63,506 nucleotides of DNA from an uncultured Megamonas sp. (GTDB lineage: Bacteria > Bacillota_C > Negativicutes > Selenomonadales > Selenomonadaceae), in assembly GCA_900556715.1 (NCBI GenBank), contig USPM01000003.1, positions 1 through 63,506 of the forward strand, given 5' to 3'. Positions 555 to 23,226 of this stretch are shown here, one piece after another. The translations under genes and the position numbers were made by a program. The notes beneath the pieces were generated by a model. That model was given only the letters and a program-made list of their open reading frames with translations, was not told where the DNA came from and did no database searches. The first letter of the stretch is position 1. Every line of letters starts with the position of its first letter.

Positions 555-570
555 TGTTGTTTTTACAACA
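555..570 (+). promoter_or_regulatory. CRP/FNR-type dyad upstream of hcp
   Basis: TGTTGTTTTTACAACA is a perfect TGTTG-N6-CAACA dyad with the spacing of CRP/FNR-family operators. A TATAAT box lies at 592-597, so the dyad centre (562.5) is 29.5 bp upstream of the -10, near -41.5 from the expected start. The same element precedes the flavodoxin gene (2940-2955) and the hemerythrin gene (23211-23226). HcpR is the likely type of regulator; that is inference. Confidence 0.8.
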
Positions 571-642
571 TACTTTTAAATTAAGCCTAATTATAATAAA
601 TATATCAATTAAATTACAAATAAAATTATTGGAGAGATAATT

Positions 643-2277
643 ATGGAAAATAAAATGTTTTGCTTTCAATGTCAAGAAACTGCACAATGCAAAGGTTGTA
701 CACGTGTAGGTGTTTGCGGAAAATCTGCCACTACTGCTACACTTCAAGATTTATTGATTTATGCAACTAAAGGTCTTTGCGAAATCACTACTAAACTTCG
801 TCAAGAAAAACAAACTATCAGTCGTAAATTAAATCAATTCATTTGTGAAAGTTTATTTATCACTATCACTAATGCCAATTTTGATGATGATATTATCAAA
901 AGACGCATCACAGAGACTTTAACTTATAAACAAGAACTACTTGCAAAATTACAAAATAAAGATAATTTATCCCCTGTAGCTCTTTGGACTACTAATGATG
1001 AAAATTCCTACCTAGAAAAAGGTGCTACTATCGGTGTATTATCTACTGAAAATGAAGATATTCGCAGTCTTCGTGAATTAATCACTTATGGTTTAAAAGG
1101 TATGGCAGCATACAATAAACATGCCAATGCCCTCGGTAAATACAACGATGAAATTGACGCATTTTTGCAAGCTACTTTAGCTAAAACAGTTGATGATAAT
1201 TTATCCGGAGAAGAATTGACATCTCTTGCTTTAGAAACTGGTGCTTTTGGTGTAAAAGTCATGGCACTTTTAGATGAAGCAAATACTTCTCGCTATGGTA
1301 ATCCAGAAATCACATCTGTAGATATCGGTGTTCGCAATAATCCAGCAATCTTGATTTCTGGTCATGATTTACGCGATTTAGAAATGCTTCTTGAACAAAC
1401 TCAAGGAACTGGTGTTGATGTATATACACATAGCGAAATGCTTCCTGCACATTACTATCCATTCTTTAAAAAATATAAAAACTTCGCAGGTAACTATGGT
1501 AATGCTTGGTGGAAACAAAAAGAAGAATTTTTATCCTTCAACGGCCCAATCTTATTGACTACTAACTGCCTCGTACCACCAAAAGCTGAATATAAAGATA
1601 GAATTTATACTACAGGTGTTGTTGGCTTTGCAGGCTGTAAACATATCCCTGGAGAAATCGGCGAAACTAAAGATTTCTCTGCTATTATTGAACATGCCAA
1701 AAAATGCCCACCACCAACACAGATTGAAACTGGTTCTATCGTAGGTGGTTTTGCCCATAATCAAGTTTTAGCACTTGCTGACAAAGTAGTTGAAGCTGTA
1801 AAATCTGGTGCTATCAAAAAATTTGTAGTTATGGCTGGCTGTGATGGTCGTCAATTAGCTAGAAATTATTATACTGACTTTGCTAAAGCACTCCCTCAAG
1901 ATACAGTTATTTTAACTGCTGGCTGTGCAAAATATAAATACAATAAATTAAATCTAGGCGATATCGGTGGTATTCCTCGCGTTTTAGATGCTGGTCAATG
2001 TAATGACAGCTATTCACTCGCTTTGATTGCCTTAAAACTTAAAGAAGTATTTGGCTTAGATGATATCAATGAATTACCAATCGCTTATAATATCGCATGG
2101 TATGAACAAAAAGCTGTTATCGTTCTTTTAGCACTTCTTTATCTTGGTGTAAAAAATATAAAACTTGGTCCTACACTTCCAGCTTTCTTATCTCCAAATG
2201 TAGCTAAAGTGCTTGTAGACAACTTCGGTATATCCGGCATTAACAGCGTAGAAGAAGATATTAAATCTCTTATCTAA
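643..2277 (+). CDS. hcp: Hydroxylamine reductase / hybrid-cluster protein
   Basis: Cytoplasmic Fe-S protein of the Hcp family, which reduces hydroxylamine in vitro and acts as an NO reductase in nitrosative-stress defence. The N-terminal cysteines C7, C10, C19 and C25 give the C-x2-C-x8-C-x5-C pattern of class I, clostridial-type Hcp. Hybrid-cluster ligand motifs are visible in order: [41 protein letters not shown] and a C-terminal WYEQKA. The length of 544 residues is normal. The start ATG follows GGAGAG with suitable spacing. No hcr reductase gene is adjacent; instead a flavodoxin gene converges on it and carries the same upstream dyad. Control by a CRP/FNR-type regulator is inferred. Confidence 0.97.
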
Positions 2278-2292
2278 AACTTAAAACACAAC

Positions 2293-2324
2293 AAAAAAGA
2301 CGGTATAAAAACCGTCTTTTTTAT
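2293..2324. terminator. Bidirectional terminator between hcp and flavodoxin
   Basis: AAAAAAGACGGT pairs with ACCGTCTTTTTT around a short A-rich loop. A- and T-runs on both flanks let it serve both convergent genes. Confidence 0.9.
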
Positions 2325-2334
2325 TTTCTTTATT

Positions 2335-2880
2335 TTATTTTTTCATATTTAAATATTTTTCTCTCAATGATATTTTACGTTTCATCGCTTCAACGAAAGC
2401 TCTTGCTCGTGAAAAATCCTCTTCATTAGGATGCATAGACGCTTTTTGCCAACGTTCAAGATTACGAGGTGTTGCTGCATGAGGATCATTTTTATCAGCA
2501 TTTTTGCGTCTTTCAAGCATTACTGGGTTTATTTTTCCTTGGCTAGCGAAAGTTCCTAATATTTTGCAATTGTCCCCTAAATAACTAGCAGCTCTAGCAA
2601 AAGCAGTTATTGAATGTTCACTATTTAATTCCGCACCTTGAGTTTGAAATAATATCACTGTCTTATTATTCAATTTAGCTAATAACTCTTGAACCTTTTT
2701 ATCTGGTTCACCGCGAGTGAGCCAATATCCTACAGCTATATTATCATAATCTGCTAAATTAAAATTATCTTTCACTGCATAAATATCAGCTTCACCCTCA
2801 TTAAATCCATTATAAATAGCCTCTGCTATTTGTTTTGTATTTCCAGTTACACTAGAATAAACTATCAACCATTTTTTCAT
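2335..2880 (-). CDS. Flavodoxin family protein (BilS-like)
   Basis: Small FMN-binding electron carrier. The N-terminus WLIVYSSVTGNTKQIAEAIY is a flavodoxin phosphate-binding loop (SSVTGNT, residues about 9-15). The pattern GYWLTRGEPDKK and the C-terminal block TPRNLERWQKASMHPNEEDF resemble the one-domain flavodoxins recently linked to bilirubin reduction (BilS). I recall that similarity only from memory and see no BilR partner here. It converges on hcp, and its promoter region carries the same CRP/FNR-type dyad. It may therefore deliver electrons during nitrosative stress, possibly to Hcp, which has no hcr neighbour. Redox partner unproven. Confidence 0.85.
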   Translation of the reverse strand: MKKWLIVYSSVTGNTKQIAEAIYNGFNEGEADIYAVKDNFNLADYDNIAVGYWLTRGEPDKKVQELLAKLNNKTVILFQTQGAELNSEHSITAFARAASYLGDNCKILGTFASQGKINPVMLERRKNADKNDPHAATPRNLERWQKASMHPNEEDFSRARAFVEAMKRKISLREKYLNMKK

Positions 2881-2939
2881 TGTACATACTCCAATCTTAT
2901 TGAATTATATAATATTATAATAAAAAAATTTATAAATTC

Positions 2940-2955
2940 AGTTGTTTTTACAACT
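2940..2955 (-). promoter_or_regulatory. CRP/FNR-type dyad upstream of the flavodoxin gene
   Basis: AGTTGTTTTTACAACT shares the GTTG-N6-CAAC core with the hcp site. On the minus strand a TATAAT lies at 2919-2914, 28.5 bp from the dyad centre. That is nearly the same geometry as at hcp and hemerythrin. Confidence 0.75.
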
Positions 2956-2960
2956 AAATA

Positions 2961-2991
2961 AAAAAGGATTAACCTTAAAGGCTAATCCTTC
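2961..2991 (-). terminator. Terminator of the hypothetical gene 3017-3523
   Basis: On the minus strand AAGGATTAGCC pairs with GGTTAATCCTT (one G-U pair) and a U-run follows. It lies just next to the flavodoxin operator. Confidence 0.8.
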
Positions 2992-3016
2992 TATTGATAT
3001 AATTCCACTATTAATA

Positions 3017-3523
3017 TTAAAATTCAATCTGTAATTTAAATTCAGTTTCTTGATTTTCTTCTTTTGCCCAAGTATTTAACATATTAATCATTGCAATAAA
3101 AGATGATGCAGAAATATCTTCAATGATATTTTGATTTTCTTTAGAACGTCCGCCCACATATTCAAGAGTAATACTACTGGATAATCTTTCATCTGCATCT
3201 TTAAATAAAGTATTAATTACACTATTTAATGTAGCTTCATTAATTACTTCATAATCACTCAAATCATTATTACAAAAAATAGTAGTTAAATTGAAAAATC
3301 CTTTTTCTCTATCGCTAATAGGTATTGCAAAATATCTATTTTCATACTTTTTATTATAAGGCACATCATAACTATGTTCATAATCCCTTACTTCATATTT
3401 ACCTACTAAATAAGCAGTAGGCTTACTTTGCTCGTCTTTCACAACTTTTACCAATTCTTTAAAAGCTACTCTAAAAGTATTTTCTTTAAACCCTTGCTTG
3501 TTAATATAAAGATAAACTTTCAT
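3017..3523 (-). CDS. Hypothetical protein, 168 aa
   Basis: Not recognised. The protein has no signal peptide or obvious membrane segment and looks like a soluble alpha/beta cytoplasmic protein. It begins MKVYLYINKQGF, contains a charged, Tyr-rich middle part (VRDYEHSYDVPYNKKYENRY) and ends in a short beta-like tail. The start ATG is preceded by AAGAGG at a somewhat long distance of about 11 bases. It is a single-gene unit with its own terminator, flanked by the flavodoxin gene downstream and the end of the GPH symporter gene upstream, so the context gives no firm functional clue. Base composition is like its neighbours. Confidence 0.6.
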   Translation of the reverse strand: MKVYLYINKQGFKENTFRVAFKELVKVVKDEQSKPTAYLVGKYEVRDYEHSYDVPYNKKYENRYFAIPISDREKGFFNLTTIFCNNDLSDYEVINEATLNSVINTLFKDADERLSSSITLEYVGGRSKENQNIIEDISASSFIAMINMLNTWAKEENQETEFKLQIEF

Positions 3524-3644
3524 CTAGTGCCATGCCTCTTTTCTCTTCAAATTTCTATTAATAATAATACCATTATATTTATAAAACGTCTATTTAAATG
3601 AAAATTCAATAAAATTTTAATTTTTAATAATTATATTTAAACAT

Positions 3645-3684
3645 AAAAAAAAGGATATTCTTTAAAAAGAATATCCTTTTTATA
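3645..3684 (-). terminator. Terminator of GPH symporter copy 1
   Basis: AAAAGGATATTC (3649-3660) pairs perfectly with GAATATCCTTTT (3669-3680). The T-tract lies on the minus-strand side. Confidence 0.88.
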
Positions 3685-3697
3685 ACTTTCATATCAA

Positions 3698-5110
3698 TTA
3701 TTTATTATCTTTACCCCAAGTACGTTCAAGTTCTCTAACAATTTCAGCATGTTTTTCTTCTGTTAATTTAACTTTAGCTTTGTAAATGAATGTTGCAATG
3801 ATGAGTAAGATAAATGGAATTGCAAACATGATAATTTGGAAGTTAAGTAAATTATCAGGAGTTATGCTTTCTGCTGTAACTTTATTACCAGACATACCAA
3901 CCCAAACAGCTGTGAAACCTACGATAGCAGATGTGATAGCACCGCCTAATTTATCAATTAAAGGACGTACACAAAGTACGAGTGCTTCATCACGATGACC
4001 AAGTTTTAACTGACCATATTCAACAGTATCTGTAATTGTCATTAATACAACAAGGAAGATAAGTGGCTGTGGTAAAGCAAATAAACCAGCACCAAGTAAT
4101 GTTAAATATACATTTTGACCAGCGAAATAGTAAATTACAACAGCAATCAACATGATTGCGATAGAGTAGAAGAATAATTTACGTCTACTGAATTTTTTAG
4201 TTAAGGATGGGAATAAAGCAACTGCCATTAAACCAATGATAACGTTGATTACACCTAAGAAGGAGAACTGAGAAGAATCACCTAATACATAGATGAAGTA
4301 ATAAAGGTTGAAGTTATTGATAAGGTTCTGACCTAAACCAAAGATAAGATATGCAAATGCAATCCATAAGAGCTGGTCATTTTTCATTAATACGGAGAAA
4401 ACCTGACCAAAAGATGTATCAGTTTTATTTTCACGAAGAGCGGAAGCATGTTCTTTTGTACCAATACCGAGGATAATTGCACCAGCAGTTGCGATTAAAC
4501 CACCGATTGCAGCAAATGCAAACCAACCTGTAGCATCACCTGCACCACCGTTACTGTTTTTAGAAAAAGCTAAAACAATTGGAATAACGATGATAGTTAC
4601 AAGCTGACCACCAAATACAGAACCGATACGAGCATAAGTAGCTGTGATTTCACGTTCACGAGAATCGAAAGAAAGTGCTGGTATCATAGACCAAATAGCA
4701 ACGTCTTTAGCTGAATAGAAAATATCCATGATTATATATAAGATAGCAAAAACAACTAAGTACATTATAGGACTTGTTTCAGCTAAACCACCAATATCAG
4801 TGAATAAGATAGCTAATGTAACTGCGGCAATAACTGCACCAGAAAGAACCCATGGTTTAAATTTGCCCCATCTTGTTTTTGTTTTATCGATAGTGTTACC
4901 GATGAATGGGTCAATGAAAAGTTCTGCGACACGAATAACAAGAATAACTGTTGTTACAAGACCGATCATATATTCATTGTAACTTGTGTCATCTGTGTTA
5001 AATAAGTTACTTGTTACGAAAATCATAAAATAAGTACCAATCATTGCATAGAAGAAGTCATGCCCAAAGGTACCACACGCATATGCTACACGTGATAAAA
5101 ATTTTGACAT
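3698..5110 (-). CDS. GPH-family (MFS) sugar:cation symporter, copy 1
   Basis: Twelve-span inner-membrane transporter of the glycoside-pentoside-hexuronide:cation symporter family (MFS_2; MelB/LacS/GusB group). These use Na+ or H+ to import glycosides or sugar acids. Family signs are the amphipathic start FLSRVAYACGTFGHDFFYA, DPFIGNTIDKTKTRWGKFKPW after TM2, and the late block TDTVEYGQLKLGHRDEALV. An upstream ATG at 5125 overlaps the GGGAGG ribosome site, so the ATG at 5110 (SKFLSRV...) is chosen, giving 470 residues. It follows the cytidylate-kinase-like gene by 50 bases, probably as one transcript. A close paralogue lies at 6343-7764. Substrate unknown. Confidence 0.9.
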   Translation of the reverse strand: MSKFLSRVAYACGTFGHDFFYAMIGTYFMIFVTSNLFNTDDTSYNEYMIGLVTTVILVIRVAELFIDPFIGNTIDKTKTRWGKFKPWVLSGAVIAAVTLAILFTDIGGLAETSPIMYLVVFAILYIIMDIFYSAKDVAIWSMIPALSFDSREREITATYARIGSVFGGQLVTIIVIPIVLAFSKNSNGGAGDATGWFAFAAIGGLIATAGAIILGIGTKEHASALRENKTDTSFGQVFSVLMKNDQLLWIAFAYLIFGLGQNLINNFNLYYFIYVLGDSSQFSFLGVINVIIGLMAVALFPSLTKKFSRRKLFFYSIAIMLIAVVIYYFAGQNVYLTLLGAGLFALPQPLIFLVVLMTITDTVEYGQLKLGHRDEALVLCVRPLIDKLGGAITSAIVGFTAVWVGMSGNKVTAESITPDNLLNFQIIMFAIPFILLIIATFIYKAKVKLTEEKHAEIVRELERTWGKDNK

Positions 5111-5160
5111 ATAAATGCCTCCCATTATGTTATTAAATTTTTAATGATTACATTAAATAA

Positions 5161-5760
5161 TTATCTAACTGTATTTATATATTCAATGATAGCATCTGCT
5201 ATTTTATCCAAAGATCCACTGCTAGTATTTACTACTAAATCATAATTTACTGGATTTCCCCATTTTTTACCAGTATAGTAGTTATAATATCTAGCTCTCT
5301 TATCATCTTCTTGATTTAATTCTTTTAATGTTTTACCATCATAAACATCTTTACCTCTTTGTGCTCTATATTCATCATTAGCACAAACAAAGATAGAAAA
5401 ATGATTTGGTACATCTTCAAGAACATAATCAGCAGAACGACCTAAAATAACACAAGGGCCATCTTCAGCAAGTTTTCTAATTACGCCAGCTTCTGCAATA
5501 AACATACCACGACTGGATTCACCTGCATGATTACCAAAAGAATGGAATGGTACATAAGTAAGTGTCATTGGTTGAACAGTATTTTCTAATTCTTTCAAAT
5601 CTTCTTCACTTAAATCATCAATGCCAAGTTTTGCAGCTGCAAGATGGATAATCTGTTTATCGTATAATTTGACATTCAATTTTTTAGCTAAAATTGTTGC
5701 TAATTCACGACCACCACAGCCATACTGACGACTTATTGTAATTACTGTATTTGAGTTCAT
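5161..5760 (-). CDS. Cytidylate kinase-like family protein, copy 1
   Basis: Protein of the cytidylate_kin2 family (PF13189), 199 residues. The N-terminus VITISRQYGCGGRELATILA is the family's modified P-loop (GCGGREL), which lacks the usual GKS/T. ILGRSADYVL and a mid-protein RGKDVYDG...ARYYNYYTGKKWG lid-like segment follow. CMP-kinase activity is not proven for this family, and a nucleotide-binding regulatory or sugar-kinase role is possible. It is the first gene of a two-gene unit with a GPH symporter. The same pair recurs at 6343-8476. The start follows GAGAGGG by seven bases. A perfect cre-type sequence lies 120 bases upstream. Confidence 0.85.
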   Translation of the reverse strand: MNSNTVITISRQYGCGGRELATILAKKLNVKLYDKQIIHLAAAKLGIDDLSEEDLKELENTVQPMTLTYVPFHSFGNHAGESSRGMFIAEAGVIRKLAEDGPCVILGRSADYVLEDVPNHFSIFVCANDEYRAQRGKDVYDGKTLKELNQEDDKRARYYNYYTGKKWGNPVNYDLVVNTSSGSLDKIADAIIEYINTVR

Positions 5761-5879
5761 ATTCGATCCCTCTCTTTAAATATTAAATATAATTAAATAA
5801 GAAAATGCTCAACTTATCAAATATATAATAATAAATAAAAGTATATGATTTTTTTGAAAATTCCTATCAAACTTACAGT

Positions 5880-5895
5880 TTGAAAACGTTTACAA
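5880..5895 (-). promoter_or_regulatory. cre-like / LacI-family operator, module copy 1
   Basis: TTGAAAACGTTTACAA matches the CcpA cre consensus WTGNAANCGNWWNCAW at every fixed position. It lies upstream of a promoter-like block shared with copy 2. It could bind CcpA or a dedicated LacI-family regulator; neither gene is in the window. Confidence 0.7.
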
Positions 5896-6282
5896 TAAAT
5901 AATTTTCGAAATGTACATTTCTAATAAAAGCTTTGTTATTATTATATTTTATATCGTTACCGATAGCAATGTTTAATGTTGCTAAAAATTGTACATATGT
6001 TGTATATTATATTAATATACCTATATAAAATAAAGTTATAACAAGTTACATTTATCAAATAAAATACCATAATAAAAGAATTTACTAATCATATCACATG
6101 CAATAAAATCATTTTTTGTTGCCAATTATATATAAATTTTTTATCACTTTAAAGAAAAAATTAAAATCCATTTATATTTTTAATATAAAATTATATGTAT
6201 CTAATAACAAAAATAATAATTTAAATTTAAAACATAATTATATTAGAAGGAAATCTATCAAAATATAATCAAAAATTAAAAT

Positions 6283-6318
6283 AAAAAAGGACATTCTCTA
6301 GAGAATGCCCTTTTTTTA
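6283..6318 (-). terminator. Terminator of GPH symporter copy 2
   Basis: AAAAAGG..ATTCTC pairs with GAGAAT.CCTTTTT around a two-base loop (one G-U pair on the minus strand), with a terminal U-run. Confidence 0.88.
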
Positions 6319-6342
6319 GTACTAATTTATAAAGATATGAAA

Positions 6343-7764
6343 TTATTTATCTTTACCCCAAGTACGTTCAAGTTCTTTAACGATTTCAGCATGTTTTTCT
6401 TCAGTAAGAGTAACTTTTGTTTTGTAAAGTAATGTTGCGATGAGAATGAATACGATTGGCACAGCAAACATGATTAATTCGAACATCATTTTATTGCTAT
6501 CAGTAATACTATCAGCTGTAGCTTTACCAGACATACCAACCCAAACAGCTGTGAAACCAACGATAGCACTTGTTACAGCACCGGATAATTTGTTAACTAA
6601 TGGTCTGATAGAAAGGATAAGGGATTCATCACGGTGACCAATTTTTAACTGACCATATTCAACAGTATCTGTGATTGTCATTAATACTACTAAGAATACA
6701 AGTGGCTGTGGTAAGTTGAATAAACCAGCTGCGATTAATACTAATACAGAATTTGTACCAGCGAAAGCATAGATGATCAATGCAATGATCATGATTACGA
6801 TAGAATAGAAGAATAAGTTTCTTCTTTTGAATTTAGTTGTTAATACAGGGAATAAAGCAACTGCTAATAAACCAATGATAACGTTGATAATACCTAAGAA
6901 GGATAAATAAGTGGAATCACCTAAAATGTAAGCGAAATAGTACATCTGGAAAGAGTTTACTAAGTCCTGACCGAAGCAGAAGATAAGGAATGTAATAGCG
7001 ATCCACATTAACTGGTCATTTTTACCTAAGATAGAGAATACTTCTTTGAAAGATGTTTCTTTTTTATTTTGACGAAGAGCGGAAGCTTGTTCTTTTGTAC
7101 CAAGACCAAGGATAACAGCACCTAATAAGGATACACCGCCACCGATTAAAGCGAAAGCTAACCAACCATTAGCATCACCAACACCACCGTTAGCATCTTT
7201 GGAGAAGAATAATACGATAGGAATAACCATTACTGTTACGAGTTGAGCACCAAATACGGAACCAATACGAGCAAATGTTGCTGTAATTTCACGTTCTTTA
7301 GAGTCGAAGGACATTGCTGGAACCATAGACCAAATAGCAACGTCTTTTGCTGAATAGAAGATATCCATTACTAAGTATAAAATAGCAAAGATAATTAAGT
7401 AGAGTAATGGATTAGATGTTGTTAAACCACCTAAGTCAGTGAACAAAATTGCTAAGCTTAAAGCTGCTACGAAACCACCAACGATAACCCATGGTTTAAA
7501 TCTACCCCATCTAGTGTTTGTTTTATCGATAGTGTTACCAATGAATGGGTCAATGAAAAGTTCTGCTACACGAATTACAAGGATTACTGTCATGATGATA
7601 CCGATCATGTATTCATTATGACTTTGATCTTCTGTGTTGAAAAGATTACTTGTGATGAACATGATAAAGTATGTGCTAACCATCATATAGAAGATATCAT
7701 GTCCGAAAGTACCGCAAGCATATGATATGCGTTGCATAAGTTTATTACCATTATTACCTGACAT
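6343..7764 (-). CDS. GPH-family (MFS) sugar:cation symporter, copy 2
   Basis: Close paralogue of the protein at 3698-5110, 473 residues. It has the same twelve-span plan, the same DPFIGNTIDKTNTRWGRFKPW loop and the same late TDTVEYGQLKIGHRDESLI block. Differences are spread along the whole length, so the duplication is not very recent. The N-terminus MSGNNGNKLMQRISYACG differs most. The start ATG has AGGAGG eight bases upstream. It is the second gene of a unit with the cytidylate-kinase-like gene at 7874-8476 (109-base gap). Inner membrane; substrate not predictable from sequence alone. Confidence 0.9.
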   Translation of the reverse strand: MSGNNGNKLMQRISYACGTFGHDIFYMMVSTYFIMFITSNLFNTEDQSHNEYMIGIIMTVILVIRVAELFIDPFIGNTIDKTNTRWGRFKPWVIVGGFVAALSLAILFTDLGGLTTSNPLLYLIIFAILYLVMDIFYSAKDVAIWSMVPAMSFDSKEREITATFARIGSVFGAQLVTVMVIPIVLFFSKDANGGVGDANGWLAFALIGGGVSLLGAVILGLGTKEQASALRQNKKETSFKEVFSILGKNDQLMWIAITFLIFCFGQDLVNSFQMYYFAYILGDSTYLSFLGIINVIIGLLAVALFPVLTTKFKRRNLFFYSIVIMIIALIIYAFAGTNSVLVLIAAGLFNLPQPLVFLVVLMTITDTVEYGQLKIGHRDESLILSIRPLVNKLSGAVTSAIVGFTAVWVGMSGKATADSITDSNKMMFELIMFAVPIVFILIATLLYKTKVTLTEEKHAEIVKELERTWGKDK

Positions 7765-7873
7765 TTATAAGTCCTCCTAAATAAAATTATAAATATTTAA
7801 TAAAAAAATTATTAACAAAACTTATGTAGATAACAGCATCTATGCTGTTACCCTTCTATATTCTTTAGTTCTT

Positions 7874-8476: not shown

Positions 8477-8630
8477 TAAAATCACCTACTCATTTATTTT
8501 ATTATCAGCATGGAACCGATAACAATTTAAGATTTAATTAAACTATCATATCATTATTTATATTTATAAATGCAATATTATATCAATAAATAAAACCATA
8601 TGATTTTTTAGAAAATTCAATTTCATATAA

Positions 8631-8646
8631 ATGAAAACGTTTACAC
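8631..8646 (-). promoter_or_regulatory. cre-like operator, module copy 2 (proximal)
   Basis: ATGAAAACGTTTACAC fits the cre consensus except for the last base. It lies at the same place relative to the shared promoter block as the site of copy 1. Confidence 0.65.
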
Positions 8647-15103: not shown

Positions 15104-15264
15104 ATTTTCAAATAAGCTCCCTTCTATATATATATACCCTTTTATAGGCATTTTAAACTATAACACACATTTATGATACAACTTTTTATAATATTTTTCA
15201 ACTATGAATATACCTTTTATATCTATAAATTATCATTAGTAATTATATATCTATATCAATAATT

Positions 15265-16254: not shown

Positions 16255-16300
16255 AAAAAACGCCCCTTTACTTTTAGTTAATATCTTTCTTATAATTATC

Positions 16301-16331
16301 ATAATACTAATTCAAGTACGCTTTAAGTCAA
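16301..16331 (-). promoter_or_regulatory. MerR-type promoter/operator of the aldo/keto reductase gene
   Basis: On the minus strand, -35 TTGACT (16331-16326) and -10 TATTAT (16306-16301) are separated by exactly 19 bp. An imperfect dyad (CTTAAAG..CTTGAAT) sits in the spacer. MerR-family activators work on such over-long spacers, and the divergent merR-like gene starts 29 bases away. Confidence 0.8.
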
Positions 16332-16359
16332 GATACTACTATACTAAAGGGGCTTTACT

Positions 16360-16779
16360 ATGGATAAACAATATTCAATTCGTGAAGTGTCAGCTAAATT
16401 CAATCTGCCAGCTTCTACACTTCGCTATTATGAAGAAGTTGGCATTTTAACTGATATTCCTCGCAATTCATCAGGCAAACGCATATATTTAGAAAAACAT
16501 ATCAATCGTTTAAAAACTATTTGTTGTTTTAAAAACACTGGCATGAGCATCTCTCAATTGCAAGAATTTTTTCAATATGAACAGCACGAACCGTCACACA
16601 TTGATGATATTTTAAAATTATTAACTAACCAAAAAAATCATATTCTAGAACAATTAGCCAAAATGCAACATGATTATACACATATTCAAAGAAAATTAGC
16701 TTATTATCAAGCTATGAAAACAGCTGTGGATAATCATACTGCATTACCTAATTGGCAAGATTATAAATGTGATAATTGA
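16360..16779 (+). CDS. MerR family transcriptional regulator
   Basis: DNA-binding regulator of 139 residues. The N-terminal winged helix-turn-helix is clear: YSIREVSAKFNLPASTLRYY at residues 4-23, then EEVGILTDIPRNSSGKRIY. A C-terminal coiled-coil dimerisation helix follows (about residues 75-125), with no cysteine-based metal loop. The subfamily with short effector domains senses aldehydes and electrophiles (AdhR/NmlR-like). The start ATG follows AAAGGGG. It is divergent from the aldo/keto reductase gene, its likely target. Confidence 0.92.
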   Translation: MDKQYSIREVSAKFNLPASTLRYYEEVGILTDIPRNSSGKRIYLEKHINRLKTICCFKNTGMSISQLQEFFQYEQHEPSHIDDILKLLTNQKNHILEQLAKMQHDYTHIQRKLAYYQAMKTAVDNHTALPNWQDYKCDN

Positions 16780-16782
16780 AAT

Positions 16783-16836
16783 ATAAGCTATAATAATTTA
16801 ATTAGAAATTTTTCCTTAAATTATTATAGCTTTTTT
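16783..16836. terminator. Bidirectional terminator between merR and yhcC-like genes
   Basis: A 17-bp perfect stem (AAGCTATAATAATTTAA at 16785-16801 with 16816-16832) is followed by T-runs on both strands. Confidence 0.9.
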
Positions 16837-16838
16837 AT

Positions 16839-17792
16839 TTATTTTTTAACTAAAAATTTTTGTACAGCACTGCCATTTAAATAATTACATAAACGACCTT
16901 GATAAAGATTTTTTTCTTCCATTTCTTTTACAATTTCATCGCGAATTTTCCACCAACCTGTCTGCCAATTACTAAATAAAGTATTTTCAGCTGGTGCTCT
17001 ACCAATTAATCGCTGTAAAACAATATTTGGAGATAAATGTTCTAAGAAATCAATTACTCTTTGTTTATAATGCTCACAAGAAATAATTTCAAATTCTTTA
17101 TTTTCATATTGTTGAGCCATTTTTGTATTTTTTACGATATAAAGTGCATGTAATTTCACCTGGTCAACGCCGAGTGCAGAAATCACTCTAGCAGTTTCAA
17201 TCATATCTTTATCATCATCCCATGGTAAATCTAAAATTACATGAGTACAACACAATAAACCATAACGCTTTATACGTAATACTGCATCAATATATTCCGC
17301 CAAACCATGACCACGATTTATTTTTTCTAAAGTCTTATAATTTATCGTTTGTAAACCTAATTCTACGCAAATATCAATATTTTTTTCTTTGGCAATTCTA
17401 GCTAAAATTTCTAGATAAACATCATTTATACAGTCTGGTCTTGTCGCTATATAAATAGCCACTATATCATCACTAGCACATGCTTCTAATACATATTTTT
17501 CTAATTGCTCTGGTGGCATATACGTATTACTGAAATTTTGAAAATACGGTATGAATTTTTTCGCCTTATATTTAGGCACTATATGAGCCTTATTCATGCG
17601 AATTTGTTCTGTTACGGATAATTCTGGTGGCAAATTTTCATAACCTGCACCGATACTACCACAAAAAGTACAACCGAATTTTCCACATGAACCATCACGA
17701 TTAGGACAAGTGAGAGGTAATCCTATAGGTAATTTATAAACTTTCTCACCATAACGCTGTTTTAAATAATCGGAAAAGGCATAATATATCAT
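16839..17792 (-). CDS. TIGR01212-family radical SAM protein (YhcC-like)
   Basis: Cytoplasmic 4Fe-4S radical SAM enzyme of unknown reaction, 317 residues. The cluster-binding cysteines lie in CPNRDGSCGKFGCTFCGSIG (residues about 29-48). Family marks include YFQNFSNTYMP, VELGLQTIN and GRAPAENTLFSNWQTGWW near the C-terminus. It is the second gene of a pair with another radical SAM gene: the upstream stop and this start share one base (TAATG), with AGGAG placed correctly. The joint function of the pair is not known. Confidence 0.9.
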   Translation of the reverse strand: MIYYAFSDYLKQRYGEKVYKLPIGLPLTCPNRDGSCGKFGCTFCGSIGAGYENLPPELSVTEQIRMNKAHIVPKYKAKKFIPYFQNFSNTYMPPEQLEKYVLEACASDDIVAIYIATRPDCINDVYLEILARIAKEKNIDICVELGLQTINYKTLEKINRGHGLAEYIDAVLRIKRYGLLCCTHVILDLPWDDDKDMIETARVISALGVDQVKLHALYIVKNTKMAQQYENKEFEIISCEHYKQRVIDFLEHLSPNIVLQRLIGRAPAENTLFSNWQTGWWKIRDEIVKEMEEKNLYQGRLCNYLNGSAVQKFLVKK

Positions 17793-19537
17793 TATAAATT
17801 TATATCTCCTTGTTTTATTTCTTGATAAAATACTTCATCATCTTCATAAGCAAAAATCATAGCATTTTCTTTTGCTTTTATTTGACATGATTTTGCTTCA
17901 TTCATATCATAGGCAAAAACTTCTATCGAAAATTTCTTTTTCAAATCACGCCATGATTTAAATTGATAATTATTAATATAAGCTAGTGCTTTTTCACTCA
18001 TATAAAAATCATCTGTTACTTTTTTATCTACTTCTTTCCATGGCAACATATCTATTTTTATCTTACCTTTATCTGTCAATAAAGCATCAAATTTCAATAC
18101 ATTATAAATATATTCTTTATCTTTTATCTTAGAATTTTGCTCAATAAAATCATATAAAAATACGTATAAATTCTTAGGAGCATGTGGTGCTAAATGCAAT
18201 TTTTTAGCTTGCCAATATTGAGCAAAGTCAGCAAAAAATGTGTAGGCATCTTGATTATATTGTTTAATTAAATTAATAATCGTATATTTAAAACGGCCAG
18301 CATTATAATATAATTCCAATACATCTACAAAAATCTGTAATTTTCGCATAGTGGCATAATCCATATATTTATTGCTGATTACTTGATATGGTGCTTGTGG
18401 CATATATACGTAATCATGCTCTTGTATCAAATCATTCATTGCGGCACCTTTTAATAATTTCAAAAAGCCCACTTGAAGCATATCAGCTTGCAATAAATAC
18501 ACATCATTAAAAGATTTTGCAAAAGAAGTAATATCTTCATAAGGAAGACCAATAATTAAATCCACATGCAGATGAATATTTCCATAAGCCATGATAGATT
18601 TTATATTATTTGTCATTTCTTCCCATGGATTTGCCCTACTTATCTGACCTAGAGTTTTTAAGTTCGTAGATTGAATACCTATTTCAAATTGTACTCTTCC
18701 CTTTGGCATTTTCTTAAGTACAGCCTTAATTTCATCATCAATATGATGAGCCACTATTTCAAAGTGGAAATTAGTTCTGCAATCTTGTTTAGCAATAAAT
18801 TCCAAAATCGGTAAATAATGCTTTTTATCTGCATTAAAAGTTCTATCTACAAATTTTACCTGACGAACATTATGTTTGATAAAATAACTTAGTTCAGCAA
18901 AAACTTTATCTAAAGAGCGATATCTTACGCCTTTAGTCGCACAAGATAAGCAATATTTACAAGAATAAGGACAACCTCTTGAACTTTCATAATAAATTAT
19001 CTTATCTTTTAAATTTTCGATATCGTCATCATCATAAGGGAAAATTATTTCATCTAAATCACTTACAGTAACTGCAATATTTTCATCAATAGTATCATCA
19101 TTATTTCTCTTTGCTATGCCAGCAATTTTAATTTCTTCATTATTTTTTTTATCTAATAAAGCTTGCAATAAATCATGAAAAGCTTTTTCACCTTCGCCAC
19201 GCACTACAAAATCCACCATAGGAAAATCTTGCATGAATTCTTTTGTAGCATATGAAACTTCTGGCCCGCCACAGATAATCTTACAATTTGGCAATAATCT
19301 ATGCACAAGTGGCAATAATTGTTTCACTAATTCAATATTCCAAATATAACAAGAAATTCCTAATATATCTGGTCTAGCATCAAATATCTGATTTGCAATA
19401 TCAATCAAATGATTATTAATAGATACTTCTAGCATCTCTATGTCACAAGATAAATCTTGGCAATTTTTGTATATATAACGAATTGCCAATGATGAATGTA
19501 TATATTTTGCATTTATCGCGGTCAATAAAACTTTCAT
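17792..19537 (-). CDS. B12-binding-domain radical SAM protein (DUF4080)
   Basis: 581 residues. The N-terminal cobalamin-binding-like domain shows DILGISCYIWN and KIICGGPEVS (residues about 55-100). The radical SAM domain has RGCPYSCKYCLSC near residue 190 (C-x3-C-x2-C) and EIGIQSTN, followed by a C-terminal DUF4080 region. It is probably a cobalamin-dependent radical SAM methylase-like enzyme acting in the cytoplasm; the substrate is unknown. It is translationally coupled to the TIGR01212-type gene downstream. Confidence 0.9.
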   Translation of the reverse strand: MKVLLTAINAKYIHSSLAIRYIYKNCQDLSCDIEMLEVSINNHLIDIANQIFDARPDILGISCYIWNIELVKQLLPLVHRLLPNCKIICGGPEVSYATKEFMQDFPMVDFVVRGEGEKAFHDLLQALLDKKNNEEIKIAGIAKRNNDDTIDENIAVTVSDLDEIIFPYDDDDIENLKDKIIYYESSRGCPYSCKYCLSCATKGVRYRSLDKVFAELSYFIKHNVRQVKFVDRTFNADKKHYLPILEFIAKQDCRTNFHFEIVAHHIDDEIKAVLKKMPKGRVQFEIGIQSTNLKTLGQISRANPWEEMTNNIKSIMAYGNIHLHVDLIIGLPYEDITSFAKSFNDVYLLQADMLQVGFLKLLKGAAMNDLIQEHDYVYMPQAPYQVISNKYMDYATMRKLQIFVDVLELYYNAGRFKYTIINLIKQYNQDAYTFFADFAQYWQAKKLHLAPHAPKNLYVFLYDFIEQNSKIKDKEYIYNVLKFDALLTDKGKIKIDMLPWKEVDKKVTDDFYMSEKALAYINNYQFKSWRDLKKKFSIEVFAYDMNEAKSCQIKAKENAMIFAYEDDEVFYQEIKQGDINL

Positions 19538-19733
19538 AAAAACTCCTCTTAACTTAATCTCTTATTTTTATCATCTTATTATTAAAATCTCATATCATAA
19601 AATAATACCTATATTATTATATATGTACAATGTATTTTTAGCAAAAACTAATGCAAGCCACTATTATTAATGATATAATAGCACTGTTACAATAAATTTA
19701 GTAACTCTATAAAATTAATAAGGGGAAGTATAA

Positions 19734-20006
19734 ATGAAACTCGTTATAACTGTTATCGGAAAAGACCGTGTAGGTATTATCGCTACTGTAAGTAATGTTC
19801 TTGCTGAAAATAAAGTAAATATTATCAGCATCAATCAAAATATTATGAATGGCTTTTTCAACATGGTTTTAATTGCTGAAATGACTGACAAAAACATTAA
19901 ATTACAGGATTTACAAAAACTCCTCAAAGAAAAAGGTGCTCAGCTCAACGTAGATATCAAAGCTCAACACGAAGATATCTTCAATGCTATGCATACAATC
20001 GGCTAA
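19734..20006 (+). CDS. ACT domain-containing protein (UPF0237)
   Basis: Stand-alone ACT domain of 90 residues: KLVITVIGKDRVGIIATVSN followed by VNIISINQNIMNGFFNMVL. ACT domains bind amino acids or similar small ligands. This protein type is almost always encoded directly before a DUF711/PFL-like protein, as here (48-base gap). It probably regulates that partner or senses its ligand; the ligand is not known. The ribosome site is AGGGGAAG. Confidence 0.93.
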   Translation: MKLVITVIGKDRVGIIATVSNVLAENKVNIISINQNIMNGFFNMVLIAEMTDKNIKLQDLQKLLKEKGAQLNVDIKAQHEDIFNAMHTIG

Positions 20007-20054
20007 TTTTAGGTATTCTTTATTAATTAACTAAAGAATTTAGGAGGAACTTTT

Positions 20055-21416
20055 GTGATTACTATTAATGATATTTTAGAAACTAATCGTATGATTACAG
20101 AAAATAAATTAGATGTTCGTACGATTACATTAGGACTTAGTCTTCGTGATTGTGCTCACCCTAATTTAAAACAATTTTGTGATAATGTTTATGATAAAAT
20201 CACAAAATCTGGTGAATTTCTAGTAAAAACCGGTGAAGATATTTCCAGTGAGTATGGTATTCCCATTATTAATAAACGTGTTTCTGTAACTCCTATTGCT
20301 ATTGCTGCTGAAGCCTGCAAAACAGATACTTATGTTCCTGTTGCTGAAGCTATGGATAGAGCTGCTAAAGAAATTGGCATTGATTTCATCGGTGGTTTTT
20401 CTGCTCTTGTTGAAAAAGGTTATACAAATGGTGATAGAATTCTCATCAATTCCATTCCACAAGCTTTAGCTACTACAGACTTAGTTTGCTCTTCTGTAAA
20501 TCTAGGTTCTACAAAAGCAGGTATCAATATGGACTGCGTTCGCGAAATGGGTGAAGTAGTAAAACGCACTGCTGAACTTACTCGCGACCGTGAAGCTATT
20601 GGTTGTGCTAAACTCGTTATCTTTGCTAATGCTCCTGGAGACAATCCATTCATGGCTGGTGCTTTCCATGGTGTCAGTGAAGCTGAAAAAGTAGTAAGCG
20701 TCGGTGTAAGTGGCCCAGGTGTTGTAAAACATGCCCTTGAAGATTTAAAAGGTGCAGATTTTACTCAAGTTGCTGAAACAATTAAAAAGACTGCATTCAA
20801 AATCACTCGTGTTGGTCAGTTAGTAGCTAAAGAAGCGTCTCGTCGTCTTGGCGTGCAATTCGGTATTATCGATTTATCCTTAGCACCAACTCCTGCTGTC
20901 GGTGATAGTGTTGCTCATATCTTAGAAGAAATGGGTCTTGAATCTTGTGGTGCTCCAGGTACAACAGCAGCTCTTGCTTTATTAAATGATGCTGTTAAAA
21001 AAGGTGGCTTAATGGCTTCTTCTCATGTTGGTGGTTTAAGCGGTGCTTTCATTCCTGTAAGTGAAGACGCTGGTATGATCGATGCTGTAAGCTGTGGAAG
21101 TCTTTCCATTGAAAAATTAGAAGCTATGACTTGTGTTTGCTCCGTAGGTCTTGATATGATCGCTATTGCCGGAGATACTCCAGCTTCTACAATCTCTGGT
21201 ATTATCGCAGATGAGGCTGCTATCGGTATGATCAATAATAAAACTACTGCTGTTCGTGTTATTCCTGTTCCTGGCAAAAAAGTCGGTGAAACTGTTAACT
21301 TCGGCGGTTTACTTGGTCATTGTCCAATTATTAAAGTTCGCAGTGATTACAGTTCTGAAGCATTTATCGCTCGCGGTGGCCGTATTCCTGCACCTATTCG
21401 CAGCTTAACAAATTAA
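20055..21416 (+). CDS. PFL family protein (UPF0210/DUF711)
   Basis: Cytoplasmic protein of 453 residues from the DUF711 family, structurally related to pyruvate formate-lyase but without a proven reaction. Typical segments are [16 protein letters not shown] near the start, [25 protein letters not shown] and the Gly-rich end [12 protein letters not shown]. The start codon is GTG with AGGAGG seven bases upstream. It is co-transcribed with the ACT-domain gene. Function remains undetermined; a role in amino-acid or one-carbon metabolism is only a guess. Confidence 0.93.
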
Positions 21417-21440
21417 TTTTAAAAAAAATAAAAAAAGTTG

Positions 21441-21469
21441 TTGACAAACGTTTAATATATAGATATAAT
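21441..21469 (+). promoter_or_regulatory. Promoter of tRNA-Arg
   Basis: -35 TTGACA (21441-21446) and -10 TATAAT (21464-21469) have a 17-bp spacer. This is a perfect consensus, as expected for a stable RNA gene. Confidence 0.9.
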
Positions 21470-21489
21470 ATTAACTGTTCTTAAGGAAC

Positions 21490-21566
21490 GCGCCCATAGC
21501 TCAGCTGGATAGAGCACACGCCTTCTAAGCGTGCGGTCGCAGGTTCGAATCCTGCTGGACGCACCA
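21490..21566 (+). tRNA. tRNA-Arg(TCT), CCA encoded
   Basis: A full cloverleaf can be folded with anticodon loop CTTCTAA (anticodon TCT, reading AGA), D-arm GCTC...GAGC, T-arm GCAGG-TTCGAAT-CCTGC and encoded CCA. The acceptor stem has one C-A mismatch at position 4-69; the other pairs are regular. 77 nt long. Confidence 0.95.
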
Positions 21567-21575
21567 TTTTGAAAT

Positions 21576-21607
21576 TAAAGCCTTAGCTATTTGCTAAGGC
21601 TTTTTTG
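21576..21607 (+). terminator. Terminator of tRNA-Arg
   Basis: AAAGCCTTAGC pairs with GCTAAGGCTTT around four bases, followed by a T-run. Confidence 0.9.
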
Positions 21608-21639
21608 TTATCTAATTATAAAAATTTTAATTCATAAAT

Positions 21640-21686
21640 AAAAAGAGACTCTATAAATTTTTTATCATTTATAAAGTCTCTTATTT
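21640..21686 (-). terminator. Terminator of larC-like gene
   Basis: AAGAGACT.TATAAAT pairs with ATTTATA.AGTCTCTT, with one internal mismatch. It starts directly after the stop codon, so no second LarC reading frame fits in between. Confidence 0.85.
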
Positions 21687-21687
21687 T

Positions 21688-22497
21688 TTATTTAACTTCA
21701 ATCATCATAGCACGAACTACATTTGGTATATCATATTTTCTTTTACCTGCACCTATACCAATTTTCTTTATGATAAATTCTTCTGGCAATCTCTCTTCTG
21801 TTTGTATACCCGCAATGATAGCAGCCCCTGTTGGTGTAATTAATTCCCCTTTTGTCTGTGTATAATGCAATCTTAAACCATGTTCTATAGCAATATTCAC
21901 TACAGCTGGTACAGGAATAGGAATTTGCCCATGTTGACAACGCACAAAGCCTTGACCTTCATATATCTTTGGACAGACAACTCTATCTATATTTAATTTA
22001 TCTATACATACAGCAGCAGCTACTATATCCACTATTGAATCCACTGCTCCTATTTCATGAAAATGAACTTCATCAATATCTACACCATGAGCCTTTGCTT
22101 CTGCATTAGCGATAATATTAAAAATTCTTATTGCTATTTCTTTTGCTCTATCCGTTATTTGAGAATTATTAATTATTTCTACGATTTCTTTTAAGCCACG
22201 ATGTTCATGGTGATGATGATGTTCATGACTATGATTATGGTGATGAGCTTCATGATGTTCACTATGTAAATAATCCATATCATGGTCATAATTATCTATA
22301 TCTAAAATTACATTAAAATCACAAGCATCAAGTGCCATTTTTTTCACACGGCTAATTTCTATTTTATATCCATCTAGTGGTAAAGTCTGTAAATTTTCCA
22401 TTAAATAATCTTTATCTACGCCTAAATCTAATAACGAAGCTACAAACATATCTCCACTAATCCCAGCATAACATTCCAAATATAATATATTATTCAT
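21688..22497 (-). CDS. larC: LarC-like nickel-pincer cofactor protein, N-terminal (LarC1) part only
   Basis: LarC inserts nickel into the pyridinium-dithiocarboxylate cofactor of lactate racemase. This 269-residue protein matches the N-terminal half: LYLECYAGISGDMFVASLLDLG, the His-rich linker near residues 77-105 (HHNHSHEHHHHHEHRG), EVHFHEIGAVDSIVDIV, and a GIGAGKRKYDIPNVVRAM end. Complete LarC has about 400 residues; in some species two frames are joined by ribosomal frameshifting. Here a terminator follows at once and no C-terminal part is present. larA, larB and larE are not nearby. It may act on another nickel enzyme or with a distant LarC2. The start follows AAGGAG. Confidence 0.85.
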   Translation of the reverse strand: MNNILYLECYAGISGDMFVASLLDLGVDKDYLMENLQTLPLDGYKIEISRVKKMALDACDFNVILDIDNYDHDMDYLHSEHHEAHHHNHSHEHHHHHEHRGLKEIVEIINNSQITDRAKEIAIRIFNIIANAEAKAHGVDIDEVHFHEIGAVDSIVDIVAAAVCIDKLNIDRVVCPKIYEGQGFVRCQHGQIPIPVPAVVNIAIEHGLRLHYTQTKGELITPTGAAIIAGIQTEERLPEEFIIKKIGIGAGKRKYDIPNVVRAMMIEVK

Positions 22498-22571
22498 AAT
22501 CTAACTCCTTTATAGTTCATCTATATTATATATTAACTGTTAAACTTAACTTCATGTCAATAAAAAAAATG

Positions 22572-22627
22572 AAAAAACCTACTATAATAATTTAAATAAA
22601 TTTTAAATCATCATAATAGGCTTTTTT
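22572..22627 (-). terminator. Terminator of hemerythrin gene
   Basis: A long hairpin of about 21 bp with several G-U pairs on the minus strand, with outer arms AGCCTA and TAGGTT and a terminal U-run. Confidence 0.75.
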
Positions 22628-22628
22628 A

Positions 22629-23117
22629 TTATTTCATGTAATTTTGTGCTTGTTCATTTAATTTTTCGATTACTTCTTTAGATAATAAACGTTCACCATA
22701 AGGATAAGCCACTTTATTTTCTTTATCTATATGTCTACGAAGTAAATAAACATAAGACATTGTATTTGTAACTATCGCTAATTTTAATTTTACTGTAGGC
22801 TCTTTTTGATATGCTTTTAAAGCATTTTCTAATTCCCAGACATATAATCTAGCTAAATTATGTTCTACAATCATACCATGATTTACTAAATTATTTGCCA
22901 TCTCATCTTTTGTTTCAAGCATAGCTTTGAATAAAAGTTCTTCTTCTTTTTGATGATGAGTTTTATCTGCATAAACGCGAATAAATTCTATAGCCTTTGT
23001 ATATTCTTCAATAGATATTTCATTTTTTTCCATCAAATCTATTGCCATACCTTCAAATTTATCTACAAATTTACTGATATTATCATGTTCTTCTCTTAAA
23101 ATTTCAAATATATTCAT
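22629..23117 (-). CDS. Hemerythrin HHE-domain protein
   Basis: Four-helix di-iron protein of 162 residues. Metal-ligand motifs occur in order: REEHDNISKF near residue 10, KTHHQKEEELLF near 60, NHGMIVEHNLARL near 82 and RRHIDKENKVAYP near 130. The YtfE/ScdA N-terminal DUF542 domain is missing. Such proteins bind O2 or NO or take part in Fe-S repair. The ATG at 23117 follows AGGAGAGG; an upstream ATG at 23156 is before the ribosome site. The CRP/FNR-type dyad shared with hcp lies 94 bases upstream, which points to a nitrosative-stress role. Confidence 0.92.
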   Translation of the reverse strand: MNIFEILREEHDNISKFVDKFEGMAIDLMEKNEISIEEYTKAIEFIRVYADKTHHQKEEELLFKAMLETKDEMANNLVNHGMIVEHNLARLYVWELENALKAYQKEPTVKLKLAIVTNTMSYVYLLRRHIDKENKVAYPYGERLLSKEVIEKLNEQAQNYMK

Positions 23118-23210
23118 CAAATAGCCTCTCCTAAATAACAAAAAATTTATACTCAATTAATAATCATCTAAATTTCATATATCATTATATAATAAATCAT
23201 ATTAAGCATA

Positions 23211-23226
23211 TGTTGTTTTTCCAACA
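23211..23226 (-). promoter_or_regulatory. CRP/FNR-type dyad upstream of the hemerythrin gene
   Basis: TGTTGTTTTTCCAACA has the same TGTTG-N6-CAACA pattern as at hcp. A minus-strand TATAAT at 23189-23184 is 29.5 bp from the dyad centre, identical to the hcp promoter. Confidence 0.8.

Follow-up and report, generated by a model that had tools for sequence, protein, structure and literature searches.

Three genes in the window (the whole stretch of DNA analysed, 63,506 bases), encoding hybrid cluster protein (hcp), a flavodoxin and a hemerythrin-domain protein, each have an inverted repeat in their promoters. These three dyads are very probably the sites of a single CRP/FNR activator of the HcpR2 branch, with Ser181 and Ala185, that acts from the class II position and turns the genes on upon nitric oxide (NO). 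The case is built on features read from DNA and protein sequences: the sites and their spacing, their conservation, their co-occurrence with the regulator, and the co-variation of its recognition helix with the half-site.

Promoters and genes in the window

The hcp promoter carries an HcpR-type dyad, TGTTGTTTTTACAACA, at 555..570 of the forward strand (centre 562.5, about -41.5), with its -10 element TATAAT at 592..597. On the reverse strand, the flavodoxin gene is preceded by AGTTGTTTTTACAACT at 2940..2955 (read toward the gene, AGTTGTAAAAACAACT; core GTTG-N6-CAAC) and TATAAT at 2914..2919, and the hemerythrin gene by TGTTGTTTTTCCAACA at 23211..23226 (read toward the gene, TGTTGGAAAAACAACA) and TATAAT at 23184..23189. 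All three dyads reported by the earlier note are thus present, as is the TATAAT that it placed 28.5–29.5 bp from each centre: a perfect hexamer lies on the gene side at 29.5 bp (hcp), 28.5 bp (flavodoxin) and 29.5 bp (hemerythrin). The flavodoxin promoter also has a second TATAAT at 38.5 bp from the dyad centre.

The exact core GTTG-N6-CAAC occurs in the whole window only at these three dyads, which is by itself only mildly unusual because 6 of 300 dinucleotide shuffles reach three (mean 0.56). Nor was the full motif enriched in the window when two mismatches were allowed (49 matches where 38.4 were expected, a count as high being reached in 9 of 100 shuffles). What is unusual in the window is the combination of dyad and TATAAT at a set spacing: the composite matched once in the forward direction (shuffle mean 0.007, with 2 of 300 reaching one) and twice in reverse, where none of 300 shuffles had any. 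A search of the window for weaker class II sites, with two mismatches in all, gave two extra matches, both within open reading frames (ORFs), and these were rejected.

The gene calls of the earlier note were correct. The hcp gene (643..2277, forward strand, 544 aa) matches PF03063 with E 1.3e-176 and exceeds the cut-offs of NF003658 and TIGR01703, its NCBIfam assignment being hydroxylamine reductase. The flavodoxin gene (2335..2880, reverse strand, 181 aa) belongs to Flavodoxin_3 and is BilS-like, though its 112.9 bits fall short of the BilS cut-off of 155. The hemerythrin-domain protein (22629..23117, reverse strand; PF01814, E 6.3e-12) has 162 aa when read from the ATG at 23117, as against 175 aa from the TTG at 23156 that the ORF list takes as its start. 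Among ORFs of at least 60 aa in the window, the regulator profile found no match at E≤1, and tblastn of the regulator described below against the window gave chance matches only, in agreement with the earlier view that the regulator gene lies elsewhere.

Conservation and class II spacing in other genomes

Our comparison within the nearest genus covered two genomes, G001 and G002. Both keep the dyad of each of the three genes, its centre 28.5–29.5 bp from a TATAAT, so the expectation that the dyads would be conserved in relatives was borne out. The pattern GTTGKWWWWMCAAC occurs four times in G001 and three times in G002, and all seven places are at these three genes or, once, at the regulator gene, a distribution that also bears out their specificity; the reversed pattern, counted irrespective of place, gave three and two matches. 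With no mismatch, dyad-N22-TATAAT is found in G002 only at the three genes. Its G001 matches are at hcp, at hemerythrin and at a third place resembling coding sequence, the G001 flavodoxin promoter having dyad-N21-TATAAT. When up to two mismatches were allowed, the composite counts (25/26 against 19/22 for the reversed control in G001; 22/21 against 11/12 in G002) exceeded those of the control only modestly, and we therefore claim no further regulon members.

The class II position near -41.5 that the earlier note proposed holds far beyond the window. In 24 chosen target promoters the -10 element lies at 29.5 bp in 22 and at 28.5 bp in two. We then took a broader hcp set, the best 80 loci of 593 relatives found, of which one had no usable hcp start, 29 had no dyad and 50 had one. 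Among these 50 dyad-bearing promoters, 39 have a -10 element (at least five of six bases) exactly 29.5 bp from the dyad centre toward hcp and at most four have one at any other distance, whereas the opposite direction gave one of 50 at 29.5 bp and at most six at any distance. In the same best 80 of 593 loci, 50 of 79 hcp genes have a dyad upstream, as against one of 79 windows of equal size placed within hcp.

Of the 26 family genomes that encode a close regulator homologue (E<1e-30), 15 contain TGTTGKWWWWMCAACA, as against 3 of 125 others (Fisher p 2.8e-11); when only intergenic places are counted, the figures are 11 of 26 and 0 of 125 (p 4.8e-10). This strict motif is missing in 11 of the 26 close-regulator genomes and lies only within genes in four more, some of those without an intergenic copy having variant dyads, and 13 of its 33 matches in the family are within genes. 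The variant TGTTGT...ATAACA was not specific: nine genomes held 15 forward matches (control 3) and 7 reverse ones (control 6), of which five genomes of one genus accounted for 14 (control 2) and 6 (control 3). Because TGTGGT-N4-ACCACA, of which 15 of 151 family genomes contain a single copy, gave 14 matches in its reversed control, its genome-wide counts show nothing, and only its places at regulator genes were used.

The candidate regulator and its proposed DNA code

In G001, a CRP/FNR gene has a fourth dyad directly ahead of its start codon, between TATAAT and the start, with pairing at only four of six half-site bases; the box of the G002 regulator matches at best 9 of 12 consensus bases. 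A protein 99% identical to the G001 regulator (P0001) has a cNMP-binding-like sensor domain (PF00027) and a Crp-type helix-turn-helix (PF13545), and the AlphaFold2 model of the regulator (pLDDT 88.5, pTM 0.71) has the CRP/FNR fold, matching chains of GlxR, NtcA, CRP, FNR and HcpR (9DAY). The G001 regulator groups with the GTAAC-type, hcp-associated HcpR2 regulators, 16 other CRP/FNR proteins splitting off with SH-aLRT 96, in one quick tree of 144 rows that excluded the recognition helix, had long outgroup branches and was made without experimentally studied HcpR. The window shares with the HcpR2 branch a box upstream of hcp; its regulator type, with Ser181, Ala185 (CRP numbering) and TGTTGT, departs from the Pro181 and GTAACnnnnGTTAC of the canonical GTAAC subtype. 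Relatives of the G001 regulator are often divergent from frdX or hcp, and hcp or frdX is found in 13 of 28 and 20 of 31 stretches around non-Pro181 regulators, such a neighbourhood being frequent in the HcpR2 branch without strictly defining it; neither gene was found within 1.5 kb of the regulator in G001 or G002, and neither was recognisable within 5 kb. The window's own genome probably carries the regulator as well.

Of 128 regulators, 80 are encoded by genes with a palindromic box close to the gene start, and the recognition helix co-varies with the half-site of this box in both the first and a fresh regulator set: Asn185 goes with TGTTGT, Arg185 with TGTTGC, Lys or His185 mostly with TGTGGT, and the Pro181 type of HcpR2 mostly with GTAAC or GTAGC, residues 183 and 185 tracking the box in addition to 181. 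That Lys or His185 always gives TGTGGT would be too strong, as base 4 is G in one or both halves for 14 of 16 and in neither half for the other two. Ala185, the residue of the G001 regulator, is mixed (10 half-sites, ending in TGT in five, TGG in three and TAT in two), and Val185 follows no single rule (eight half-sites: three TGT, four TTG, one TGC). Few independent changes lie behind the co-variation, with one to four tree contrasts on supported branches, none significant alone, and too few contrasts for significance in sister-pair tests. Applied to hcp promoters with a linked regulator (35 loci, 11 without a dyad), the code fits 21 of 24, the misfits being L066, L075 and L076, although the rule was framed after the own-promoter dyads had been seen and, in 12 of the 24, one and the same dyad serves both the regulator and hcp.

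Cys28, Cys119, Cys123 and His126 occur together in 97 of the 128 regulators. The G001 regulator and P0001 have a single Cys (Cys28) before residue 80, followed by CX3CX2H at 119–126, and thus do not show the three N-terminal Cys of FNR. Nor do they suggest a heme-type HcpR: the column of the P. gingivalis heme ligand Met68 holds Lys64 here, and Lys, Gln, Arg or Ser in 105 of the 128. The four residues most likely form an iron-sulfur or other metal sensing site.

Discussion

In the mechanism that we favour, a dimer of the HcpR2-branch regulator would bind TGTTGT-N4-ACAACA and close variants centred at -41.5 and would contact RNA polymerase from this class II position. An encounter with NO would then turn on hcp, for NO reduction, together with the flavodoxin, a probable electron carrier, and the hemerythrin-domain protein, which may contribute di-iron NO or O2 chemistry; the dyad between TATAAT and start codon in G001 would be placed for self-repression. 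The HcpR-like activator with a TGTTG half-site that the earlier note predicted is supported by the CRP/FNR gene of G001, whose start codon follows a dyad, and by the helix-to-box co-variation in the family.

An origin of the dyads as AT-rich inverted repeats that arose by chance, or as RNA hairpins, in either case without a regulator, would agree with the shuffles, in which the relaxed motif was about as common as in the window and three exact cores appeared 6 times in 300. Such an origin is nevertheless extremely unlikely given the fixed 29.5 bp in 39 of 50 dyad-bearing promoters (best 80 of 593 loci) and the conservation in both genus-mates; the dyads, moreover, lie upstream of the -10 and therefore outside the transcript from that promoter. 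It is also very unlikely that the dyads are bound by the other CRP/FNR protein of the genus instead of the HcpR-like one. Such a second protein is present in G002 (L022), but its helix AREVVTR (Arg180, Glu181, Arg185) follows the CRP pattern, which is expected to bind TGTGA, and its only counterpart found in G001 was a 103-aa ORF.

Somewhat less easily set aside, though still improbable, is a signal other than NO, such that the same regulator binds but responds to oxygen, redox state or general iron-sulfur damage, and the genes form a general redox-stress set. Hemerythrin and flavodoxin have redox and O2 roles too, and damage to a Cys3His site could come from O2 just as from NO. The studied HcpR relatives, however, answer to NO: a C. 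difficile hcpR mutant is reported as sensitive to NO, nitrite and peroxynitrite but not to reactive oxygen species (PMC12915319), and P. gingivalis HcpR is reported to bind NO at heme (PMC12750200). We thus retain NO as the probable signal.

These results connect a probable NO defence in Selenomonas-type anaerobes with a type of regulator, a DNA box and an arrangement of the promoter, the class II geometry being common to hcp promoters of many other anaerobes. The helix-to-box co-variation would let HcpR regulons of unstudied anaerobes be predicted, and the all-or-none Cys/His set is a concrete candidate for the NO-sensing site. Sensing in this family is so far only partly understood, with heme in P. 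gingivalis and iron-sulfur reported for D. desulfuricans HcpR2. A broader proposal, whose chances we judge evenly balanced, is that most Bacillota HcpR sense NO via a hitherto unrecognised iron-sulfur or metal site made up of three Cys plus a His, in contrast to the P. gingivalis heme and the four-Cys cluster in FNR, that one branch lost the whole site and shifted its DNA code toward TGTGGT, and that the code of residues 181, 183 and 185 is readable; in that case the protein by itself would suffice to predict an HcpR regulon. Neither the TGTTGT box nor the Cys/His set was found in the literature among the matches listed.

FNR has three Cys near its N-terminus and a fourth further on, and its site is TTGAT-N4-ATCAA. 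Our regulator matches the fold of holo-FNR (PDB 5E44) and possibly has an iron-sulfur sensor in common with it, but differs in its one N-terminal Cys, its CX3CX2H and its TGTTGT box. P. gingivalis HcpR (PDB 9DAY, the second-best PDB sequence match to the regulator profile as well as a fold match) has in common the CRP/FNR fold and, as described in PMC12750200, NO defence through hcp; it differs in having the heme ligand Met68 where Lys64 stands here and in lacking CX3CX2H from the aligned stretch, with a Cys one column from Cys28. For D. desulfuricans, HcpR2 is described as regulating hcp upon NO, with iron-sulfur clusters that NO damages, and hcpR1 belongs to a gene group induced by NO in which a flavodoxin is also present (PMC5701242); hcp control is modelled there as repression relieved by NO, whereas the -41.5 position here predicts activation. 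Closest is the HcpR2 regulon of Rodionov et al. 2005 (PMC1274295), described as a CRP/FNR regulator, often adjoining hcp, with a palindromic box, hcp and frdX as targets and hemerythrin-like genes among its members. Its consensus is GTAACnnnnGTTAC with Pro181, as against TGTTGT-N4-ACAACA with Ser181 and Ala185 here, and different motifs with Ser181 (C. thermocellum, C. difficile) and Gln181 (P. gingivalis) were already noted there; the gene set here adds a flavodoxin, a word absent from the main text of that paper.

Results

The three dyads that an earlier note had placed before hcp (555-570), a flavodoxin gene (2940-2955) and a hemerythrin gene (23211-23226) lie at those positions, with no other exact GTTG-N6-CAAC in the window, and the gene identities were confirmed (hcp, a Flavodoxin_3 protein and a hemerythrin-domain protein). 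The bare core is by itself mildly unusual (mean of 0.56 in dinucleotide shuffles of the window, with three or more in 6 of 300), and at two mismatches the dyad motif is not enriched in the window (49 observed, 38.4 expected). The composite of dyad and TATAAT was matched in 0 of 300 shuffles for the reverse strand, where the window has two, and in 2 of 300 for the forward strand, where it has one; jointly, the dyad and a perfect TATAAT at 28.5 or 29.5 bp from its centre are far beyond chance. As also noted earlier, the regulator gene is absent from the window, a profile of the regulator matching none of its ORFs of at least 60 aa. Between the hemerythrin dyad and a divergent HAD-family gene (23317, plus strand), two copies of the palindrome AGTATATACT stand 13 bp apart at 23257-23279, and the pair looks like a candidate operator of another regulator.

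The dyad is kept at all three target genes in both compared genomes of the nearest genus, G001 (the nearest of the genomes compared, with 22% of sampled 31-mers common with the window) and G002. GTTGKWWWWMCAAC occurs at four places in G001, the three targets and the regulator gene (3 for the same pattern reversed), and at three in G002, the three targets (reversed, 2); by these strict boxes, the recognisable regulon in the genus comprises three genes, plus the regulator gene in G001. A perfect TATAAT lies 28.5 or 29.5 bp from the dyad centre in 9/9 promoters of the window, G001 and G002. At no mismatches, the three matches to dyad-N22-TATAAT in G002 were the three targets, and those in G001 were hcp, hemerythrin and one place apparently coding by its reading, the G001 flavodoxin promoter having a spacer of N21.

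G001 carries a CRP/FNR gene, as the reading from the window had called for, of 219 codons and with a fourth dyad before its ATG. This dyad, GTTGTTTTTCCAAC, begins 9 bases past a TATAAT and ends 14 bases short of the ATG, and a second TATAAT lies 10 bp further upstream; if the nearer TATAAT is the -10, the dyad would be positioned for self-repression. By alignment to CRP, the recognition helix SVERSAMSAEL presents Arg180, Ser181, Met183 and Ala185. The G002 orthologue (71% identical; helix SVDRSAMSAEL) has only a degenerate box (9/12) in its own promoter. G041 belongs to the family of G001, and 97% of its regulator aligns at 100% identity with P0121, a protein that NCBI assigns to a Selenomonas ruminantium assembly; the window thus most likely has its place in the Selenomonas family, with a likeness to Megamonas. 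The other CRP/FNR protein of the genus has a CRP-type helix, AREVVTR. The gene of this second protein forms a 223-codon ORF in G002 (L022) and, judging from the 103-codon ORF that was all we found in G001 (L024), is shortened or broken there. Some relatives, among them G043 (L199) and G062 (L200), have two or three HcpR-like homologues with differing helices and boxes. In one relative genus (L132 and L141 of G007; L143, L144) the regulator gene is divergent from flavodoxin, or from frdX then flavodoxin, a link between this flavodoxin and HcpR that does not rest on the window.

TGTTGKWWWWMCAACA has 33 places in the family (reversed, 5), spread over 18 of 151 genomes, and 26 of the genomes have a close regulator homologue (E<1e-30). 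The motif was present in 15 of the 26 genomes with the regulator versus 3 of the 125 without it (Fisher p 2.8e-11). All 33 places were inspected, and 20 are intergenic, every one in a regulator-bearing genome (11/26 genomes with the regulator versus 0/125 without; p 4.8e-10): seven before frdX (three of which also serve a divergent regulator gene), seven before hcp, two before hemerythrin, three before a small CGGC-motif protein and one upstream of a gene without evident link. The remaining 13 fall within genes, and in at least two cases (L180, L196) the motif there spells Walker A codons. Of this intragenic kind is every place in the three genomes lacking the regulator (four in all), and likewise every place in four regulator-bearing genomes (G033, G056, G075, G123). 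The CGGC-motif gene (129 aa; L187 1543-1929, minus strand; also L189 and L192; three genomes, all from a single relative genus) has TGTTGTAAATACAACA upstream with a near-consensus -10 (5/6) at 29.5 bp, and is likely an added regulon member in that genus.

Of 24 target promoters chosen from the window, G001, G002 and relatives, several of one genus and hence not independent, 22 have the -10 at 29.5 bp and the other two have it at 28.5. A broader test on genome_contigs took the best 80 hcp loci of 593 relatives, one of which was without a usable hcp start or upstream DNA, and accepted -10 hexamers matching at 5/6 or better. Within these best 80, 50 had a GT...AC palindrome within 250 bp and 29 had none; inside hcp, one of 79 control windows had such a palindrome. 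The -10 lay exactly 29.5 bp from the centre on the hcp side in 39 of these 50 dyad-bearing promoters and no other single distance on that side was shared by more than 4. Facing away from hcp, 1 of the 50 had it at 29.5, and no distance had more than 6. By this spacing, the hcp box of many Clostridia and some Negativicutes is centred at -41.5, the position of class II activators that had earlier been read from the window.

To relate helix to half-site, 28 family regulators, 35 near hcp in named genomes and 65 fresh ones gathered by searching across the phylum were assembled. For each, the best palindrome close to the start codon, required only to have GT...AC and 5/6 paired half-site bases, was taken as the own-promoter dyad. 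Such a dyad was found in 80 of the 128 (43/65 fresh, 23/35 near-hcp, 14/28 family), and in 3/65 control windows inside the fresh genes; the G001 regulator, whose own dyad pairs at 4/6 only, was left out of the 80. The following counts call for caution, as related proteins agree in both helix residue and box. Base 4 was A in 49/50 half-sites under Pro181 and, under Ser181, T in 71/86 and G in 15/86. Among Pro181 proteins, base 5 was G with Met183 (14/14) and A with Leu183 (29/36). In the non-Pro181 proteins, base 6 was C with Arg185 (33/34) and T with Asn185 (24/24); Lys or His185 went with T at base 6 (29/32) and G at base 4 (23/32). Half-sites were mixed under Val185 (TGT 3, TTG 4, TGC 1; n=8), and under Ala185, which the Megamonas-like regulator has, the last three bases were TGT 5, TGG 3 and TAT 2 (n=10); TGTTGT and TGTTGG, as also seen with Ala185, are the half-sites at hcp and hemerythrin in the window. 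On the tree, the supported branches gave each rule 1 to 4 contrasts, on average none against it, and no rule was significant alone. Where a regulator is linked to an hcp promoter, the dyad there agrees with the rule in 21/24 cases, half of these being the regulator's own dyad.

The columns of Cys28, Cys119, Cys123 and His126 (regulator numbering) behave as a set: all four residues are present in 97 of the 128 regulators, none or one in 26, and two or three in 5. Two database searches, one with a query bearing the set and one with a query lacking it, were each read to the best 120 homologues. Of these 240, the full set occurs in 118, at most one of its residues in 119, two or three in 0, and 3 were gapped, the motif-less being nearly all of one Lys185 clade and hence not independent. 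CX3CX2H was found in 0/16 other CRP/FNR proteins of the set. The tree requires 7 changes for Cys28 and 8 for the CX3CX2H residues; in three supported contrasts Cys28 and these residues go together 2.7 times on average, not significant alone. A structure model places Cys119 and Cys123 ahead of a long helix (124-151) and Cys28 at the close of a helix near the N terminus. Among non-Pro181 regulators with Lys or His185, 12 or 13 of 20 are without the set (L159, L160, L162 and relatives), often with TGTGGT boxes; the putative sensor set and the predicted DNA code are altered in overlapping branches.

Discussion

The observation of the earlier note was right, and its interpretation, an HcpR-like activator, is supported by conservation, by co-occurrence of box and regulator and by the -41.5 spacing. 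We regard the three genes as very probably a new small HcpR regulon of known kind, with a variant box and predicted binding and NO response; our confidence is slightly lowered because Ala185 turned out less strict and because 4 of the 15 genomes having both motif and regulator have the motif inside genes only. Beyond the earlier note, the analysis adds a widely kept -41.5 geometry, a three-residue code and a candidate Cys3His sensor site.

The correlation at 180 and 181 was described by Rodionov et al. 2005, where 185 is cited as a CRP DNA-contacting position (PMC1274295); added here is that 183 and 185 track the predicted box within HcpR2. The all-or-none pattern of three cysteines and one histidine suggests Cys28/Cys119/Cys123/His126 as a candidate Fe-S or metal site. 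HcpR2 of D. desulfuricans is described as having Fe-S clusters that NO damages (PMC5701242), and P. gingivalis HcpR uses heme, with Met68 (PMC12750200). The Cys/His set seen here is distinct, and the residue of the present regulator that aligns with Met68 is Lys64.
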